The position numbers and the translations under genes are program-made. A stretch of 64,000 nt of DNA from the NCBI RefSeq assembly GCF_020991365.1, contig NZ_JAJLRA010000009.1:1-64000 (forward strand), given 5' to 3'. Shown here in pieces: positions 13,543-21,519 of the stretch (position 1 is its first letter; every line of letters starts with the position of its first letter). The notes below the pieces were generated by a model. That model saw nothing but the letters and a program-made list of their open reading frames with translations, made no database searches and was not told where the DNA came from. The stretch comes from Streptacidiphilus sp. ASG 303. Its GTDB lineage: Bacteria; Actinomycetota; Actinomycetes; Streptomycetales; Streptomycetaceae.

Positions 13543-14448
13543 TCACCGCGCCGTGACGTCGTGGGCCGTGCCGTTCGTGACAGCCTGCAGTTTGTCGGGG
13601 TTCGCGACGTTGTGGATGGCGGTGATACGGCCGTCGGCGGCGAAGTCGAAGGTGACGGTGGCGATCACCCGGCCTGGGGCGCTGAACACCATGCCCGGAC
13701 CGCCGTTGATCTCGACGAGCTCGGCGCTCATGCCGGCGGGCTGGACGCCCTCGTAGGTGAGCGTGCCGATGGCGGCGAACCACGAGGCCACCGTCTGCGC
13801 CCCCACGACCGGCTTGAGCGCCTGACGCACCTTGCCGCCGCCGTCGGTCCACAGAGTGACGTCCGGGGACAACAGCTCCATCAGGGCATTGATGTCACCG
13901 CCGGTCGCCGCGGCGAAGAACCGCTCGGTGACCTCACGCCGCCGGCCGCGGTCGGCGGCGAACCGGGGCCGCCGGGCCCGTACGTGCCCATGCGCACGGT
14001 GTGCGGCCTGCCGGACCGCCACCTCGGAACGTTCCACCGCCTGCGCGATCTCGGCGTGGCTGAAGCCGAACACCTCCTTCAGCACGAAGACCGCGCGCTC
14101 CAGCGGGCTCAGCGTCTCGAGCACCACCAGCATCGCCATCGACACCGACTCGGCGTCCGTGACGGCGTCGGCGGTGTCACCGCTGGTGAGGATGGGCTCG
14201 GGAAGCCATGGGCCGACGTAGTCCTCGCGCTTGTGCCGGGTGGAACGCAGGCGCTCCAGGGCCAGGTTGGACACGATCCGCGTCAAGTACGCCTTGGGAT
14301 CGGCGACGTGGGAACGGTCGGCGAATGACCACTTGATCCAGGTGTCCTGCACCGCGTCCTCGGCGTCAGCGGCGGAGCCGAGGAGGCGGTAGGCCACGGA
14401 GAACAGCAACCTGCGGTACTCATGGAAGACCTGCTCGTCGGCGCTCAC
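13543..14448 (-). CDS. SigJ/ECF41-like sigma factor with C-terminal SnoaL-like domain
   Basis: The protein has about 301 residues. Sigma region 2 (HEYRRLLFSVAYRLLGSAADAEDAVQDTWIKW) and region 4 (LSPLERAVFVLKEVFGFSHAEIAQAVERSEVAVRQAAHRA) are followed by a roughly 110-residue SnoaL/NTF2-like domain (FFAAATGGDINALMELLSPDVTLWTDGGG). In ECF41-type factors this C-terminal extension regulates activity in place of a separate anti-sigma factor. GTG 14448 overlaps the stop of the upstream oxidoreductase by four bases (GTGA), so the two are translationally coupled. Such sigma factors are typically paired with oxidoreductase or decarboxylase genes, as here. Confidence 0.9.
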   Translation of the reverse strand: MSADEQVFHEYRRLLFSVAYRLLGSAADAEDAVQDTWIKWSFADRSHVADPKAYLTRIVSNLALERLRSTRHKREDYVGPWLPEPILTSGDTADAVTDAESVSMAMLVVLETLSPLERAVFVLKEVFGFSHAEIAQAVERSEVAVRQAAHRAHGHVRARRPRFAADRGRRREVTERFFAAATGGDINALMELLSPDVTLWTDGGGKVRQALKPVVGAQTVASWFAAIGTLTYEGVQPAGMSAELVEINGGPGMVFSAPGRVIATVTFDFAADGRITAIHNVANPDKLQAVTNGTAHDVTAR

Positions 14449-15658
14449 TCGGCACCTGCTGCGCGGCGGGTGAAGCGACCGCCGTGCGGCCAGAACGCGC
14501 CCGAGGCGGGCATCTTCTTCATACGGCCGAAGGTCGGCCAGGGCGAGGCGCTCACCGTCTCCTTGTACCGGGCGGCCGGCCGACCGGTCAGATGAACGCG
14601 TCGCGGACTGTCGTCGGGGCGGGTGAACTGCACCACGGCGTCATGGCGGCCCAGGCTCACCGGTGTGTGGTAGTAGCCGAAGCGGAACCGCTTGGGCCGC
14701 TTGCCCCCGAGCATGCGGACGATGGACACCGCGGCGTGCACCCCGGTCGGCATGCCGCTCTGGCAGGTGCCGTGCATGACGCCGTACCCCTGACGGATCG
14801 CCGCGGCGTCACCGACGGCGAACACATCGGGGTGCGACACCGAACGCAGCGCGTGGTCCGTGACGACGCGGCCGCGTTCGTCGACGGCCAGTCCGGCGGC
14901 GGCAGCCAGGGGCGACATCCGCGTACCGCTCGTCCACAGGACGACATCGGCGGCAATGCTCTCGGCCCCCGCCAGTTCGACCGACCCGGGCAGCACCTTC
15001 ACCACCTCGACTCCGTGGCGCACCGTGACGCCGAGGCAGCCGAGCGCCGACTGCAGATACGTCCTGGCCCTCGCGTTCATGGCCGCACCGGGTTCGTCCC
15101 GGCCCAGCAGGACGACGTTCAGCTCGGGGTGCCGCTCGGCGATCTCGGCGGCCGACTCGACGCCGGTCAGACCGCTGCCGGCGACCACCACGGTGCCGCC
15201 GCCGAGCCGCTCCAGCCGGTCCGCCAGCGCCTGGGCGTCCTGGACACTGCTGAGGGTGTACGCGTGCTCATCGACGCCCGGCACCGAGGCGGTGTCGGCC
15301 ACGCTGCCCAACGCGTACACGAGCGTGTCGTACCGAAGGATTCGGTCGTCGTCGATCCGCACCGTCCGCGCGTCCGCGTCCACCGCCGTCACCCAGCCGC
15401 ACACGAACCGCGCACCCGTCCCCTCCAGCAGGCGCGGAACGCTCAACTCGGCGAGCTGCTGACCGGTCGCCGTCATGTGCAGCCGCAGCCGCTCGACGAA
15501 CCGCTCCTGCGCGTTCACCAGGTCACCTGCACGTCCTCGTGCCGCTTGACCCGGGACGGGAGCTGTACGGCCGCGGACATGCCCGCATACCCCGCGCCCA
15601 CAATCACCACGCGGTGCGCGGTGGCCGCCGCGCCCATTCCGTGCCGTGCTCTCATCAT
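14445..15658 (-). pseudogene. NAD(P)/FAD-dependent oxidoreductase (NDH-2-like) with a single-base frameshift
   Basis: From ATG 15658 (GGAGGAG ribosome binding site) the protein begins with a FAD Rossmann motif (HRVVIVGAGYAGMSAAVQLP) and would read on as VQVTLVNAQERFVERLRLHM. One base, a G on the plus strand, is missing near 15521-15522, giving a premature TGA. The rest of the frame is intact: the second dinucleotide fold (GGTVVVAGSGLTGVESAAEIAERHPE) and the FAD-binding HPDVFAVGDAA motif. The intact length would be about 404 residues, a normal size. Everything else looks functional, so this is either a recent mutation or an assembly error. It overlaps the downstream ECF41-like sigma gene by four bases. 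Confidence 0.75.
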
Positions 15659-15675
15659 TTCGTTCTCCTCCACCG

Positions 15676-15722
15676 GGCTCTTGGCTCTTGGTCTGGCTCT
15701 TGGCTCTTGGCTCTTGGCTCTT
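15676..15722. repeat. heptanucleotide repeat GGCTCTT, six copies
   Basis: Two copies (15676-15689), a five-base interruption, then four perfect copies (15695-15722). On the minus strand it lies in the leader of the frameshifted oxidoreductase, directly upstream of its ribosome binding site. Seven-base units outside the coding region can change promoter or leader spacing by slippage. Confidence 0.95.
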
Positions 15723-15755
15723 GATGGCCAGTGGATGGAGGCTGCGGATCAGTCC

Positions 15756-15786
15756 GTGACATCCCATCGATGTGGCGTGCGCCACA
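15756..15786 (-). promoter_or_regulatory. possible promoter region with palindrome upstream of the oxidoreductase/sigma unit
   Basis: A perfect 16-bp palindrome (TGTGGCG-TG-CGCCACA, 15771-15786) lies just upstream of a minus-strand TGTCAC at 15761-15756. TGTCAC matches most of the -35 motif recognised by ECF41-type sigma factors; no good -10 partner was seen at the usual spacing. Confidence 0.35.
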
Positions 15787-15884
15787 GCGGTCCTGATGGC
15801 TTGAGCACCCCGTGCCGAGCCCGCCGGCACGCGAAAAGCGTCGGCCCCAGCTCCTCCCCGCGACTACGGTGCTGCTGGTGGAGG

Positions 15885-16205
15885 GTCGCCGGCGAGGCCC
15901 TGCTCTGGGGCATCGACACACACAACCGGACGGCTCACATCGGGGTCGCCCTGCGCCCCGCGTTCCGCGGCCACGGGCTCGGCGTCGATGTGCTGCACAC
16001 ACTGTGCGAGTACGGATTCGCCGTACGCGGACTGCAGCGCCTGCAGATCGACACCCTCACGGACAACACCCCGATGCTCGCGGCGGCAACCAGGGTCGGG
16101 TTCACGCGGGAGGGAACGCTGCGACGTTCCTCCTGGGTGTACGGCACATACGTGGACGAAGCCATCTTCGGCCTCCTCGCCGACGAATGGACGCCCCGGA
16201 GATGA
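15885..16205 (+). pseudogene. GNAT-family acetyltransferase, 5'-truncated
   Basis: The frame reads AGEALLWGIDTHNRTAHIGV, LRPAFRGHGLGVDVLHTLCE, LQRLQIDTLTDNTPMLAAAT and RVGFTREGTLRRSSWVYGTY. It holds the acetyl-CoA loop (RGHGLG) and the C-terminal GNAT strand-helix pattern of RimJ/RimL-type N-acetyltransferases. The N-terminal quarter is absent: upstream sequence switches frame and has no homologous start or ribosome binding site. It is probably a remnant. Confidence 0.7.
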
Positions 16206-16547: not shown

Positions 16548-17990
16548 TCAGACGGTGATGGTCTTGTACTCGGTGTAGGTGCCGAGGCCGACCGCGCCGT
16601 ACTCGCGGCCGATGCCGCTGGCCTTGAAGCCTCCGAAGGGGCCGTCGAAGGCGATCGATGCGCCGTTGACGGTGACGGTGCCGGTGCGTACGCGGCGGGC
16701 GACCGCGAGGGCGTGCGCCTCGTCGGAGGACCAGACGCCGCCGGACAGGCCGTACTCGGAGTCGTTGGCGATGCGGACGGCGTCGTCCTCGTCGTCGTAG
16801 GCGATGACGACCAGCACCGGGCCGAAGATCTCCTCCTGGGCGATCCGCATGGAGTTGTCGACGTCGGCGAAGACGGTGGGGGTGACGTAGTTGCCCTTCT
16901 CCAGGCCCTCGGGGATCTGCGGGCCGCCGGTGACCAGGCGGGCGCCTTCCTCGATGCCGAGCCGGATGTAATCGCGCACGCGCTCCTGCTGGTCAGGGCG
17001 GATCATCGGACCGATGAACGTGTCGGGCTCGTTCGGGTCACCGACCTTCAGCGACTCCACCAGCTCCTTCAGCGCCGTCACCACCTCCTCGTACTTCTCC
17101 CGCGGGGCGAGGATCCGGGTCTGCGCGATGCAGGACTCGCCGTTGTTGAGCAGGGAACCGAACTTCAGGCCCGCGACGGCCTTCTCGATGTCGGCGTCCG
17201 GCAGGATGATGGCGGCGGACTTGCCGCCCAGCTCGAGGCTGAACCGCTTGAGCTGCTCGCCGGCAATCGAGGCGATGCGGCGGCCCGCACGCGTCGAACC
17301 CGTGAAGGCGATCTTGTCGACGTCCTTGTGCGAGATCAGGTACTCGCTGGTCTCCCGGTCGGCGGGCAGGACGCTGACGACCCCCTCGGGCAGGCCGACC
17401 TGCGCCAGCAGCTCGGCCAGGAAGCCCATGCTGAGCGAGTTCTCCGGAGACACCTTGAGAACCACGGAGTTCCCTGTCACCAGGGCAGGGATGATCTTCG
17501 ACGTGGCCGAGGAGAACGGCGAGTTCCAGGGAATCACCGCGGCCACCACGCCGACCGCTTCGCGGCGTACCACGCTGCGGGTCGGGGAGGACGGGTCGGA
17601 GGGAACAAGGGTCTCCTCCCAGTCGAACTCCTCGGCGGCCTTGAGGTAGGCGTTCGCCTGCCGGGTCAGGCCGGCCTGGCCGGCGCGGGTGAACCAACCG
17701 GCGGAGCCGTTCTCCAGCGAGATCAGGTGGGCGATCTTCTCCGCGTTCTCCTCCCGCAGGGCGTTGAACCGGCGAAGAGCCGCGATCCGCTCGGCGGGCG
17801 GGGTCAGCCGCCACTCACCGGAATCGAAGGACGCCCGGGCCGCAGCGACCGCGCGGTCGATGTCGGCCGGCTGCGCCTGGGCCGCGCGGGCGACCACGGA
17901 CCGGTCGTGGGGTGAGGTGATGTCGAGCAGCTCGCCACTGCTCGGCTCGACCCAGGAACCTCCGATGAAAACCCGGTCGTAGGTGATCAT
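16548..17990 (-). CDS. aldehyde dehydrogenase (NAD(P)-dependent)
   Basis: This is a 480-residue ALDH-superfamily enzyme oxidising aldehydes to acids in the cytoplasm. The catalytic Cys is in LLNNGESCIAQTR and the general-base Glu in LELGGKSA; the cofactor-binding region shows IPWNSP and FTGSTRAGRRIA. Full length for the family. ATG 17990 is preceded by AGAGAGGC; an upstream in-frame start adds only 17 unsupported residues. It is transcribed away from a degenerate TetR gene, with a 24-bp operator-like inverted repeat 50 bp upstream of the start. Substrate cannot be told from sequence. Confidence 0.92.
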   Translation of the reverse strand: MITYDRVFIGGSWVEPSSGELLDITSPHDRSVVARAAQAQPADIDRAVAAARASFDSGEWRLTPPAERIAALRRFNALREENAEKIAHLISLENGSAGWFTRAGQAGLTRQANAYLKAAEEFDWEETLVPSDPSSPTRSVVRREAVGVVAAVIPWNSPFSSATSKIIPALVTGNSVVLKVSPENSLSMGFLAELLAQVGLPEGVVSVLPADRETSEYLISHKDVDKIAFTGSTRAGRRIASIAGEQLKRFSLELGGKSAAIILPDADIEKAVAGLKFGSLLNNGESCIAQTRILAPREKYEEVVTALKELVESLKVGDPNEPDTFIGPMIRPDQQERVRDYIRLGIEEGARLVTGGPQIPEGLEKGNYVTPTVFADVDNSMRIAQEEIFGPVLVVIAYDDEDDAVRIANDSEYGLSGGVWSSDEAHALAVARRVRTGTVTVNGASIAFDGPFGGFKASGIGREYGAVGLGTYTEYKTITV

Positions 17991-18039
17991 GTGCTGCCTC
18001 TCTCTTCCGCTTGCTCCGTACAGTTCGACGACTGCAATC

Positions 18040-18063
18040 AAATGCTACTTCACTGTAGCACTT
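18040..18063. promoter_or_regulatory. putative TetR operator upstream of the aldehyde dehydrogenase gene
   Basis: Inverted repeat AAATGCTAC-N6-GTAGCACTT, eight of nine base pairs symmetric. Twenty of 24 bases are shared with 20533-20556 in front of the MFS gene. Confidence 0.7.
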
Positions 18064-18132
18064 ATTAGCAGTATGAGCACATTGATGTGGTACTCAAGCG
18101 ACGTAATATTCGCATCCGCGACACTCTGGGTC

Positions 18133-18650
18133 ATGAGGGCCGAGGCAACCCGCAGACTCGAAGCCGTCCCGCCCACCGGGGCACGCATGCCGGCCGCCGA
18201 CCCCGGCGCGAGCATCGCGGCGGAGGCGGGCGTGGACCGGCGTACCGTCCACCGGCGCTTCGCCGGCCGCGAGGACCTGCTCGCGGCCATCCACGAGTCC
18301 CGCGTCTTTGCCGTCGAAGAGGCCGACGGGCCCGGCCCGGCCGGGCGAGGCGCCCGTCGCCGTCGCCCTGCACCGCTACGTCGAGGGCGTCATCGCCGTG
18401 AACCGGACCTGGCCCGTCGGCCTTGCCCGCTTGCTCGCCGACGGCACCATCCGCCGACGCCGTGACGCCTGCATCGCCGAGGTGGCCGCCTTTGCGGAGC
18501 AGGCCACGAGCGAGGGCCTCCTCAGCCGGGACCAGCGGGAGCGACGGGCGGGACCACTGCTCCCCGAACCGGTGCACCTGGCGGCACACCAGCAGACCCA
18601 CCCCACCCCCGGCCCGAACGCCCGACGTGGTGGTCGACACGTTTCCACGC
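18133..18650 (+). pseudogene. degenerate TetR-family regulator, paralogue of the 20.6 kb TetR gene
   Basis: The frame of 18133 gives MRAEATRRLEAVPPTGARMP and AAEAGVDRRTVHRRFAGRED, a TetR helix-turn-helix lacking three residues (ASI) seen in the intact paralogue. Near 18340 homology moves to another frame: EAPVAVALHRYVEGVIAVNR and TWPVGLARLLADGTIRRRRD, then fades out around 18650. Side by side with the gene at 20629-21171 the match is continuous, so this is a frameshifted, 3'-degraded duplicate. It is divergent from the aldehyde dehydrogenase gene, as the intact copy is from the MFS gene. Confidence 0.8.
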
Positions 18651-18967
18651 GGGATCGGCACGCCCCGCCGGCGGATCCAGGAACAGGCGCAGCAGGCACG
18701 ACTTCCCGGCGGCCGGGGCAGCGCAGTCGCGCAAGGCGCATGCAAGGGCCGAACCCCTTGCGGGGGGCCGGCGGCAAACCTGAACGCACTCCGGAACTGT
18801 GGCCCCTGGGCCCGCCACGGCGCGATCCGCACCCGGCACCTGGTCGCGGCGCACGGGTGAGCCCGGCAGCACGCCGAGCACGAGCGCGGGCGCCCGGCCA
18901 TGCGCCGCCGGCCGGCGCCCGGTGAGTGCGGCGGCCGGTCGAGGACTGGTGAGCGAGGCCGGAGGGG
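18651..18967. other. intergenic, no gene recognised
   Basis: Between the decayed TetR gene and the 3' end of the MFS gene. Probably further TetR debris; nothing identifiable. Confidence 0.45.
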
Positions 18968-20503
18968 TCAGGCGGCCGAGACGGGATCCTTGGCGGGCGC
19001 GGGGTCGGAGGCGGGTGTCGGTTCGGCGGTCCTCCGGGCCGGCTTGAGGAAGAGGGCCAGGCCGATGCCGACGGCGAGGGCCGGGGCGATCCGCAGGTAT
19101 CCCATGGCGGTGGCGTGGGCGAAGGCGTCCAGCGCGGTGTCGCGCACGGCGGCGGGCAGCAGGCCGATGGTGTCGGGGCGGGTGGCGTCGAAGCCGCCGG
19201 TGGTCGGCAGGTCGTGCGTGCGATCGGCGAAGCCGGTGTTCAGCAAGGTACCGAAGACGGCGACTCCGAAGGCCGCGCCGATGGAGCGGGCGAAGGTGAC
19301 GACGGCGCTGGCGGCGCCGAGGTCGGCGGTCGGGACGCTGTTCTGAACGGTGGTCAGCACGACCATGGGGATCATGCCGATGCCGACACCGGTGATCAGG
19401 AAATAGACGCTCAGCAGCAGGGTGCCGGTGGCGGCGCCGATGGTGCCCAGCAGGAGCAGTCCGGCGAGGTTGGCGACCAGCCCGGCCAGCAGGATCGTCC
19501 GGAGCCGGTCGACGTGCGCCGCCCAGCGCCCGGCCAGGGACTGGCTGATGACCAGGCCGGCGACCAGAGGCAGCATGTGGATGCCGGAGAGGGTGGCCGA
19601 GACTCCGTGAACGATCTGGAGGTAGGTCGGCAGGTAGACCAGGGCGGCGAACATCGCGGCGTTGGCGAGAAAGCCGATCAGCGAGGAGAAGACCACGGTC
19701 CGGGAGCCGAGCACGGCCGGCGGCAGGACAGGGGCGGTGGCCCGGCGCTCGACAGGGACCAGTGCGGCGGCCAGCGCGACGGTGGCGACGATCAGGGCGA
19801 TGCCGGCCGGCGATCCCCAGCCCCAGCGCTCGCCGAACGACGTGAGCAGAACCAGGCCGGTCGCGATGGCGGCGAGGACGGTCGCGCCGAAGTAGTCGAT
19901 GCGAGCCTTGACGCCACGCCGGGCCGTGGGCAGCGCGCGGGAGGCGACGGCCAGGGCGACGATGCCGACGGGCAGGTTGATCAGGAAGGCCCACCGCCAG
20001 GACAGCTGGTCGGTGAAGACCCCGCCCAGCAGGGGGCCGACGATGCTGGCCACGCCGTAGACGGAACCGAACATGGCCTGGTACCGGCCGCGCTCGGCCG
20101 GGGCGGCGATGTCACCGACCAGGGCGAAGGTCAGCACGATCATGCCGCCGCCGCCCACGCCCTGCAGGACCCGCGCGCCGATCAGTTCGGGCAGGTCTTG
20201 TGCCAGGCCGCAGGCGATCGAGGCGATCAGGAAGACGGAGGTCGACGCGAGGTAGAGCCGCTTGCGGCCGAACATGTCGCCGAGCTTGCCCCACAGCGGC
20301 GTCACGGCGGTGGAGGCGAGCAGATACGCGGCGCTGACCCACGCGATGTCGTCGAACCCGTTCAGGTCCTGCGCCATCCGGGGCAGTGCGGTCGAGACGA
20401 TCGTCTGGTCCAGGGCCGCCAGGAGGACCGCGAGGATCAACGCGCTCATGGCGGCGGCCACACCACCTGCCTCGGGTACTGCCGACTCGTGTGCCTTCGG
20501 CAT
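18968..20503 (-). CDS. MFS transporter, DHA2 (EmrB/QacA-like) drug:proton antiporter family
   Basis: This is a 511-residue integral membrane protein with about 14 hydrophobic segments. It carries the family motifs LDQTIVSTALPRMAQDL in helix 1, WGKLGDMFGRKRLYL (motif A) in loop 2-3, and RVLQGVGGGGMIVLTFALVGD. Such proteins export drugs or metabolites using the proton gradient. ATG 20503 has AAAGG upstream. It is divergent from an intact TetR gene, with an operator-like repeat in the spacer, so repression by that TetR with release by substrate is the likely logic. Confidence 0.92.
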   Translation of the reverse strand: MPKAHESAVPEAGGVAAAMSALILAVLLAALDQTIVSTALPRMAQDLNGFDDIAWVSAAYLLASTAVTPLWGKLGDMFGRKRLYLASTSVFLIASIACGLAQDLPELIGARVLQGVGGGGMIVLTFALVGDIAAPAERGRYQAMFGSVYGVASIVGPLLGGVFTDQLSWRWAFLINLPVGIVALAVASRALPTARRGVKARIDYFGATVLAAIATGLVLLTSFGERWGWGSPAGIALIVATVALAAALVPVERRATAPVLPPAVLGSRTVVFSSLIGFLANAAMFAALVYLPTYLQIVHGVSATLSGIHMLPLVAGLVISQSLAGRWAAHVDRLRTILLAGLVANLAGLLLLGTIGAATGTLLLSVYFLITGVGIGMIPMVVLTTVQNSVPTADLGAASAVVTFARSIGAAFGVAVFGTLLNTGFADRTHDLPTTGGFDATRPDTIGLLPAAVRDTALDAFAHATAMGYLRIAPALAVGIGLALFLKPARRTAEPTPASDPAPAKDPVSAA

Positions 20504-20532
20504 CGCAACGCGCCTTTCGGAGAGCAATCTTT

Positions 20533-20556
20533 AAATGACACTTTAATGTAGCACTT
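20533..20556. promoter_or_regulatory. putative TetR operator between the MFS and TetR genes
   Basis: AAATGACAC-N6-GTAGCACTT. One half-site is identical to the aldehyde dehydrogenase operator at 18040-18063 and the other half is partly decayed. Confidence 0.65.
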
Positions 20557-20592
20557 AAGTTCGCAAACTGCACACAGAGGTGGCAATAGTTG

Positions 20593-20621
20593 TGTCAGGG
20601 TGCACAGTCGCCCACTAGACT
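20593..20621 (+). promoter_or_regulatory. promoter of the TetR gene, leaderless type
   Basis: A TAGACT -10 (20616-20621) lies exactly 7 nt before the GTG start, so transcription should begin at or next to the start codon. The -35 is weak (TGTCAG at 20593-20598). Confidence 0.6.
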
Positions 20622-20628
20622 CGGCGTC

Positions 20629-21171
20629 GTGAGAGCCGACGCAGCACGCAACCTCGAAGCCGTCCTGACCACCGGAGCGCGCATGCTCGCCGCCGACCCC
20701 GGCGCGAGCATCGCGAGCATCGCGGCGGAAGCGGGAGTGGACCGGCGCACGGTCTACCGACGCTTCGACTCCCGCGAGGCCCTCCTCGCCGCCATCTACG
20801 AAGCCCGCCTCACCGCCATCGAGGACGCCATCGAGGACGCCCGGCTGCGCGAGGCACCCGTCGCAGTGGCTCTGCACCGCTACGTCGAGAACGTCATCGC
20901 CCTGAACCGCACCTGGCCCGTCGACCTCGCCGACATGCTCGCCGACGACAGCGTCCGCGTCCGCCGTGACGCCGCCGTCCGCGAGGTCGACGCGTTCCTG
21001 GCCCGGGCCACCGACGAGGGCCTGCTGCGTGCCGGCCTCCCCGAAGGCTGGGCGAGCGCGCTGCTTCCCCAGGTGGTGCACCTCATCTCACGGCAGCAGC
21101 CCGAGCTGAGCCCCGGGCAGGCAGCGGACGTCGTCGTCGACACTCTCCTGCACGGCCTGGGGACACGCTGA
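20629..21171 (+). CDS. TetR/AcrR-family transcriptional regulator
   Basis: The protein has 180 residues. The N-terminal helix-turn-helix is IASIAAEAGVDRRTVYRRFDSREALLAAIYEAR, followed by an all-helical ligand domain. The GTG start at 20629 has no ribosome binding site but a -10 seven bases upstream, fitting a leaderless transcript; the degenerate paralogue aligns from its equivalent codon. It is divergent from the MFS gene and probably represses it. The paralogous regulator at 18.1 kb is broken, so this protein may now control both operators (inference). The stop codon lies inside a 70-bp palindrome that serves as terminator. Confidence 0.88.
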   Translation: MRADAARNLEAVLTTGARMLAADPGASIASIAAEAGVDRRTVYRRFDSREALLAAIYEARLTAIEDAIEDARLREAPVAVALHRYVENVIALNRTWPVDLADMLADDSVRVRRDAAVREVDAFLARATDEGLLRAGLPEGWASALLPQVVHLISRQQPELSPGQAADVVVDTLLHGLGTR

Positions 21172-21231
21172 CGCACGGGTGCCCGGGACCACCTGTCCAG
21201 GTGGTCCCGGGCACCCGTGCGTCAGCGTGTC
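21162..21231. terminator. 70-bp perfect inverted repeat, bidirectional terminator
   Basis: Arms 21162-21195 and 21198-21231 are perfectly complementary over 34 bp with only TC between them. It contains the TetR stop codon on one side and abuts the stop of the convergent HAD fragment on the other. Confidence 0.85.
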
Positions 21232-21519
21232 AGGGCGTCAGGGTGTCACCTTGAGAAGTGACCCCATACGGGTCGCCGTCCGTCAGCGGAATGCCGAGCA
21301 GGTCTTCCAGCACCGCCACCGTCCGGGCCGGCTCCTTGGCATGGACGGTGGCGCATCCCAGTCCCGCCGCGGGCAGCAGGTACTGCTCGGTGTCGTCCAC
21401 GAACACGCACTCCTCGGCCCGCAGGCCGAGACCGTCCAGCACGATCTGGAAGATCTCCGGTTCGGGCTTGCGCGTACCGTGCTCCTCCGACAGCACCAGG
21501 GCGTCGAAGCGCTCCTCCA
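21230..21519 (-). pseudogene. HAD-superfamily hydrolase, C-terminal fragment
   Basis: The frame reads LEERFDALVLSEEHGTRKPE and then CVFVDDTEQYLLPAAGLGCA. These are HAD motifs III (KPEPEIF) and IV (VFVDDTEQ) of phosphoglycolate phosphatase-like enzymes. The N-terminal nucleophile motif DxDxT is missing; an in-frame TGA sits immediately before this stretch near 21520. Truncated and probably non-functional. Its stop is embedded in the big palindrome shared with the TetR gene. Confidence 0.75.

Follow-up and report, generated by a model that had tools for sequence, protein, structure and literature searches.

LfrR of Mycobacterium smegmatis is a TetR repressor of the MFS multidrug pump LfrA. Among the TetR regulators of Streptomyces, the divergent gene is as a rule the target, as described by Ahn et al. 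(2012, PMC3511530). The window analyzed here, a stretch of 64,000 nucleotides from the 7.0-Mb draft assembly (200 contigs) of Streptacidiphilus sp. ASG 303, holds two such arrangements side by side between 16.5 and 21.2 kb, in the order aldehyde dehydrogenase (ALDH; minus strand), predicted operator 1, broken TetR gene (plus), MFS pump (minus), predicted operator 2, and intact TetR gene (plus). This layout bears out the first-pass annotation, which had placed the ALDH and MFS genes each opposite a divergent TetR gene. Judging from the comparison with relatives, we consider it very probable that the locus is a two-operator regulon served by one TetR, in which a regulator-operator module was duplicated, its ALDH-side copy decayed, and the surviving MFS-side TetR binds both predicted sites and represses the ALDH as well as the pump. 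A search of the full-text literature, judged by titles and the beginnings of abstracts, returned no paper on a TetR/ALDH/MFS regulon.

The ALDH (480 aa; 16548–17990, minus strand) carries a full-length Aldedh domain (PF00171 positions 1–461 of 461; Pfam Aldedh, 1.5e-154), and its likelier start is the ATG at 17990, the TTG at 18041 merely opening the longest ORF. The DHA2-family MFS efflux pump (18968–20503, minus strand; Pfam MFS_1, 1.2e-56; likely start ATG 20503) passes the DHA2 EmrB-type model TIGR00711 with 237.5 bits against a curated cut-off of 230.2. As genes, the two earlier calls stand; their starts probably lie elsewhere than first given. Identification of the ALDH as the phenylacetaldehyde dehydrogenase StyD was rejected at 423.5 bits for NF045736 (curated cut-off 800), and neither the ALDH nor the pump could be assigned a substrate by the equivalog cut-offs among its 25 best NCBIfam rows. 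The intact TetR-family repressor (180 aa; 20629–21171, plus strand) begins with GTG, with a possible upstream TTG start at 20590. It has an N-terminal TetR-type helix-turn-helix (Pfam TetR_N, PF00440, 35.7 bits against a cut-off of 24), and its AlphaFold2 model (mean pLDDT 91.7) contains 9 helices, in keeping with the all-helical TetR fold of about 9 helices; the top 50 Foldseek rows for this model are regulators that we take to be TetR-type, or close to it.

Several further features surround these genes. The end of the intact TetR gene is covered by a perfect inverted repeat (21162–21231; arms of 34 bp, gap of 2 bases), perhaps a bidirectional terminator. Directly behind that gene is a C-terminal HAD-type hydrolase fragment (21230–21496, minus strand), just below the cut-off, which may be a truncated neighbor, since genes that look HAD-like by eye lie near the TetR gene in some relatives (L118, L135, and L169, where L numbers denote neighborhood loci and, below, G numbers denote genomes). 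A GNAT acetyltransferase fragment without its first part (15850–16205, plus strand) sits inside a long spurious ORF, and the GNAT, TetR, and HAD fragments together suggest that the stretch is decaying. Farther out, an ECF-type sigma factor (13543–14448, minus strand), with a weak SnoaL-like match below the cut-off, adjoins a pyridine-nucleotide oxidoreductase (14445–15830).

Predicted operator 1 (AAATGCTACTTCACTGTAGCACTT; 18040–18063, plus strand) lies between the ALDH and the broken TetR gene, 49 bp from the ALDH start, and predicted operator 2 (AAATGACACTTTAATGTAGCACTT; 20533–20556, plus strand) lies between the MFS and the intact TetR gene, 29 bp from the MFS start, which on sequence evidence places a dyad site in the divergent intergenic region of the TetR gene. 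The two are identical at 20 of 24 positions. Within the window, a dyad pattern allowing up to 3 mismatches matched at these two sites alone (at the first, on both strands) and gave 0 matches in 100 shuffles, upholding the claim of a 24-bp sequence common to both spacers. The genome scan for additional copies that the first-pass annotation had proposed was run with a looser pattern, again at up to 3 mismatches, and returned the same two places alone in the 7.0-Mb assembly, both with 0 mismatches; the reversed control reached 3 matches in the assembly at the 3-mismatch tolerance, so matches with 3 mismatches would carry little weight. A matrix built from 31 distinct sites upstream of TetR genes, with the window excluded (consensus AACTGTCACTTTAATGTAGCACTT), scored the MFS site at 40.1 bits and the ALDH site at 34.6, the next best place in the window reaching 4.9. 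The ALDH site thus falls below both the MFS site and the training mean of 42.2 bits, and control of the ALDH may be weaker. The perfect dyad TGCTAC-N6-GTAGCA was rejected as a specific marker, with matches in 48 of 394 genomes; among the matches listed, known module positions account for no more than those of the window and a single one in G157. On these comparisons it is the asymmetric 24-mer that is specific to the module, not the perfect dyad alone.

Within the genome, the best match of the intact TetR in a six-frame search is the ALDH-side copy (18133 to approximately 18665, plus strand), which persists as two pieces in different frames, 74% identical to the intact protein over 18133–18327 and 58% over 18332–18619. 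This match agrees with the earlier description of the two genes as paralogues. Alignment with intact ALDH-side copies from other genomes reveals a 9-bp in-frame contraction in the helix-turn-helix, frameshifts at about 18330 and about 18610, and the lack of a stop codon where one would normally lie, the last part shifting frame again; the gene had been described as frameshifted, and it carries more than that one lesion. Errors of assembly are an unlikely source of the frameshifts, given the several lesions, the long branch (0.52), and the decay that this gene shows in other genomes. Three genomes besides that of the window contain remnants of an ALDH-side TetR, namely G082 (start lost, internal stop, internal deletion), G254 (internal deletion and a 9-bp contraction identical to the window's), and G266 (first part lost), which supports the view that this copy is decaying.

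Relatives of the TetR were found in 59 of 394 family genomes (E ≤ 1e-35) and relatives of the ALDH in 49 of 394 (E ≤ 1e-180), 46 of the latter being among the 59 TetR genomes (not G055, G230, and G369). Around these matches 60 neighborhoods were fetched, leaving out the TetR matches of G242, G312, G326, G356, G357, and G370, the ALDH matches of G055 and G369, and, in some genomes, second ALDH or TetR matches on other contigs. Together with 12 of 17 further loci (five weak partial matches omitted) and 24 kb of the window, they made 73 loci, and removal of two duplicates left 71 (934,755 bases). Matrix matches of at least 15 bits in these 71 neighborhoods all lie within 160 bp upstream of module genes (TetR, ALDH, MFS, SDR, or hydrolase; 70 of 70), a count in which the TetR-proximal sites are partly training data and the independent part consists of 18 ALDH sites and one MFS site with no TetR opposite. 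A strict motif occurred at 36 sites in 26 of the 62 genomes holding TetR or ALDH and was absent from the other 36 (reversed control, 0), these places being assigned to the module by position and, for G050:C42, by reading. Among genomes without TetR and ALDH (62 of 332, taken in list order), it occurred at 1 site in 1 of 62, scoring 10.3 bits. Confinement of the motif to the module supports the earlier description of a duplicated regulator-operator module.

The placement of the sites bears on what they are. Thirty of the 34 TetR-proximal sites with up to 5 mismatches to the seed consensus (the window's two included, duplicate loci removed) lie 93–98 bp upstream of the TetR start, as do 56 of 69 over all rows, good site or not, and the TetR-proximal site is present in Saccharopolyspora and Nocardia too. 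Its position 17–59 bp upstream of ALDH starts would suit a promoter, but it is highly improbable that the 24-bp element acts as a promoter or RNA element instead of an operator, as it forms a dyad at a mostly fixed distance from the TetR gene, precedes genes of several unrelated kinds, and hardly occurs in genomes that lack the TetR. A promoter and terminator scan of 17900–20700 found nothing, no sigma-70-type promoter matching in the region in a scan that covers Streptomyces promoters poorly. All 27 TetR genes of at least 62% identity that face an ALDH or MFS gene have a site of at least 25 bits. Only 3 of the 20 that face neither have their own, and the others lack one even where the ALDH elsewhere retains a strong site, so autoregulation is not general; the site seems to be kept for the target gene more than for TetR autoregulation. 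ALDH genes have their own site in 35 of 51 cases. Of the 16 without, 14 accompany a TetR of the 51–56% clade, in 13 cases with an SDR gene between TetR and ALDH, and the remaining ones are in L165 (a split ALDH, in fact with a 48.4-bit site) and G230. MFS genes have a site in 12 of 16 cases, and the 4 without sit just downstream of an ALDH on the same strand.

Two related arrangements appeared in the same neighborhoods. A second TetR clade, most of whose members show 51–56% identity, stands opposite an SDR gene close to this ALDH in L023, L119, L151, L168, L173, and others, and partly uses the related dyad TGCAAC-N6-GTTGCA. In L150, L157, L162, L166, and L171, the module is linked with two alpha/beta hydrolases, and the leader of one of them looks twin-arginine-like by eye. 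The alpha/beta hydrolase that is often module-linked in relatives has a 75% homologue in the window genome on another contig, and the 4-kb locus of this homologue contains no site (best 5.4 bits), so the hydrolase is not added to the regulon in this genome.

At 22 loci, the window included, there is no confirmed intact TetR divergent from the ALDH, yet the ALDH site persists. Twenty-one are clear, and in L143 the opposite TetR runs off the contig end; L140 and L172 have an intact TetR nearby, but in the same direction as the ALDH. The 22 sites lie 17–59 bp upstream of the ALDH starts in one orientation (22 of 22), with a mean pairwise identity of 81% versus 30–38% in the flanks, in an alignment whose rows were anchored on the best-scoring place and so are biased towards operator identity. 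At 15 of the 22 no TetR remnant was detected within 900 bp of the ALDH (tblastn E ≤ 0.01, blastn E ≤ 0.001), meaning that the ALDH-side TetR there is lost or was never present; the whole-protein TetR tree gave no resolution on whether single-TetR relatives formerly had two copies. These loci speak to the reading in which the ALDH site is a passive remnant, its regulator having died so recently that the site has not yet decayed, and the ALDH is unregulated. The weaker ALDH site of the window (34.6 versus 40.1 bits) and its still recognizable pseudogene would fit such a history, yet at the 15 loci without a remnant the site is conserved and the flanks are not, and G230, which has the ALDH at 86% and no TetR match at E ≤ 1e-35, is also without a site before the ALDH; we regard this reading as unlikely. 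Control of the ALDH through the 18040 site by a different regulator, for instance a TetR paralogue less closely related, would draw on the further TetR-type proteins of the genome (29–44% identity over spans of varied length), but no site lies near the TetR gene at any of five such loci (best −2.6 bits) and the strict motif is nearly absent where this TetR is absent (1 of 62 genomes), making it very unlikely. The suggestion that the surviving TetR may serve both sites gains support from the comparison, the ALDH site being kept in 22 loci and the motif confined to the module.

The history of the TetR copies themselves points to how one could come to act for the other. In G289 the two copies differ at 5 positions in nt 1–320 and at 63 beyond, the synonymous distance rising from 0.028 in the first half to 0.47 in the second. 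Third-position identity over nt 1–270 within a genome is 97% in G289 (90 sites), 91% in G240 (90), 91% in G082 (68), and 93% in G254 (45), against a cross-genome mean of 72% and maximum of 94%. No such excess was seen within G327 (67%), G066 (77%), or the window (75%), and the copies in these three genomes show no recent conversion. Because the whole-protein tree mixes two histories, it was replaced by half-gene trees. In the ligand half, all 7 ALDH-side copies form one group (97.2/99), the pseudogenes of the window, G082, and G254 among them. Forcing this group is without cost in the ligand half. In the DNA-binding half the penalty is 68.8 log units (AU p 0.0018), and 59.9 (AU p 0.0006) when the 4 intact ALDH-side copies alone are forced together; internal branch support in the DNA-binding-half tree is mostly weak. 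Gene conversion of the DNA-binding half, clear in two genomes, is the best reading of this pattern. What is new here is that the DNA-binding halves appear homogenized by conversion where both copies survive, with the ligand halves in separate groups. Conversion that keeps the DNA-binding halves alike would explain how one TetR copy can replace the other at the operator, and the recognition region VDRRTVYRRF is nearly identical in ALDH-side and MFS-side copies. Mean dN/dS in the two halves is 0.20 and 0.32 for the intact ALDH-side copies (6 pairs) and 0.11 and 0.28 for the MFS-side copies (15 pairs); the intact ALDH-side copies look constrained and are thus probably working regulators.

With near-identical recognition regions, the same operators, and an operator that outlasts the ALDH-side copy, the simplest reading is that the MFS-side TetR acts on both operators. 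We propose that a TetR gene beside the ALDH would have been duplicated in streptomycetes, leaving one copy facing the ALDH and the other an MFS pump with a common operator, and that conversion in some lineages has kept the DNA-binding halves alike as the ligand-binding halves diverged. In the window genome and others the ALDH-side TetR has decayed, while its operator persists. Both sites are most probably bound by dimers of the surviving MFS-side TetR, which would repress the ALDH and the pump, perhaps itself too, with ligand binding by the TetR releasing both together. Binding, repression, shared induction, the order of duplication then loss, and a role against toxic aldehydes or xenobiotics are what we infer from the sequences, the gene families alone pointing to detoxification. 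Tentatively, we speculate that the earlier state may have been a two-sensor, one-operator circuit, in which two repressors with different ligand pockets, their DNA-binding halves held alike by conversion, could each occupy both operators and made full induction depend on both ligands, and repeated loss of the ALDH-side sensor left one ligand in charge with both operators kept. If so, that repeated loss would be a replicated natural experiment in the collapse of duplicated regulators, and conversion confined to the DNA-binding half would let paralogous regulators stay on a common operator while sensing diverges. The locus offers a small actinobacterial regulon whose predicted operator and targets are defined from sequence alone, and a graded series, running from two intact regulators through broken and remnant copies to none, along which the operator survives the loss of its local regulator. 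It also offers a clear example of gene conversion limited to the part of paralogous repressors that binds DNA, which is relevant to the ways in which duplicated regulators escape cross-talk or turn it to use.

Among known systems, the MFS protein has its best NCBIfam matches in the tetracycline efflux proteins OtrB (261.6 bits against a curated cut-off of 999) and Tcr3 (246.1 against 1000), scores so far short that by this test it is neither pump. LfrR is second among the PDB sequence matches of the intact TetR and the best fold match of its model (2v57_B, 29% identity, TM 0.72). A modeled TetR fold with LfrR as its nearest solved relative fits a repressor that a small ligand would release from DNA; the identity of 29% with the best LfrR chain would speak against orthology. 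The LfrR–LfrA system is not known to include an ALDH, a duplicated regulator, or a second operator. The terms "aldehyde dehydrogenase," "duplicat," "paralog," and "pseudogene" have 0 occurrences in the main text of PMC3511530, and the window system likewise pairs a TetR with a divergent predicted target gene, following the rule given there for the Streptomyces regulators.
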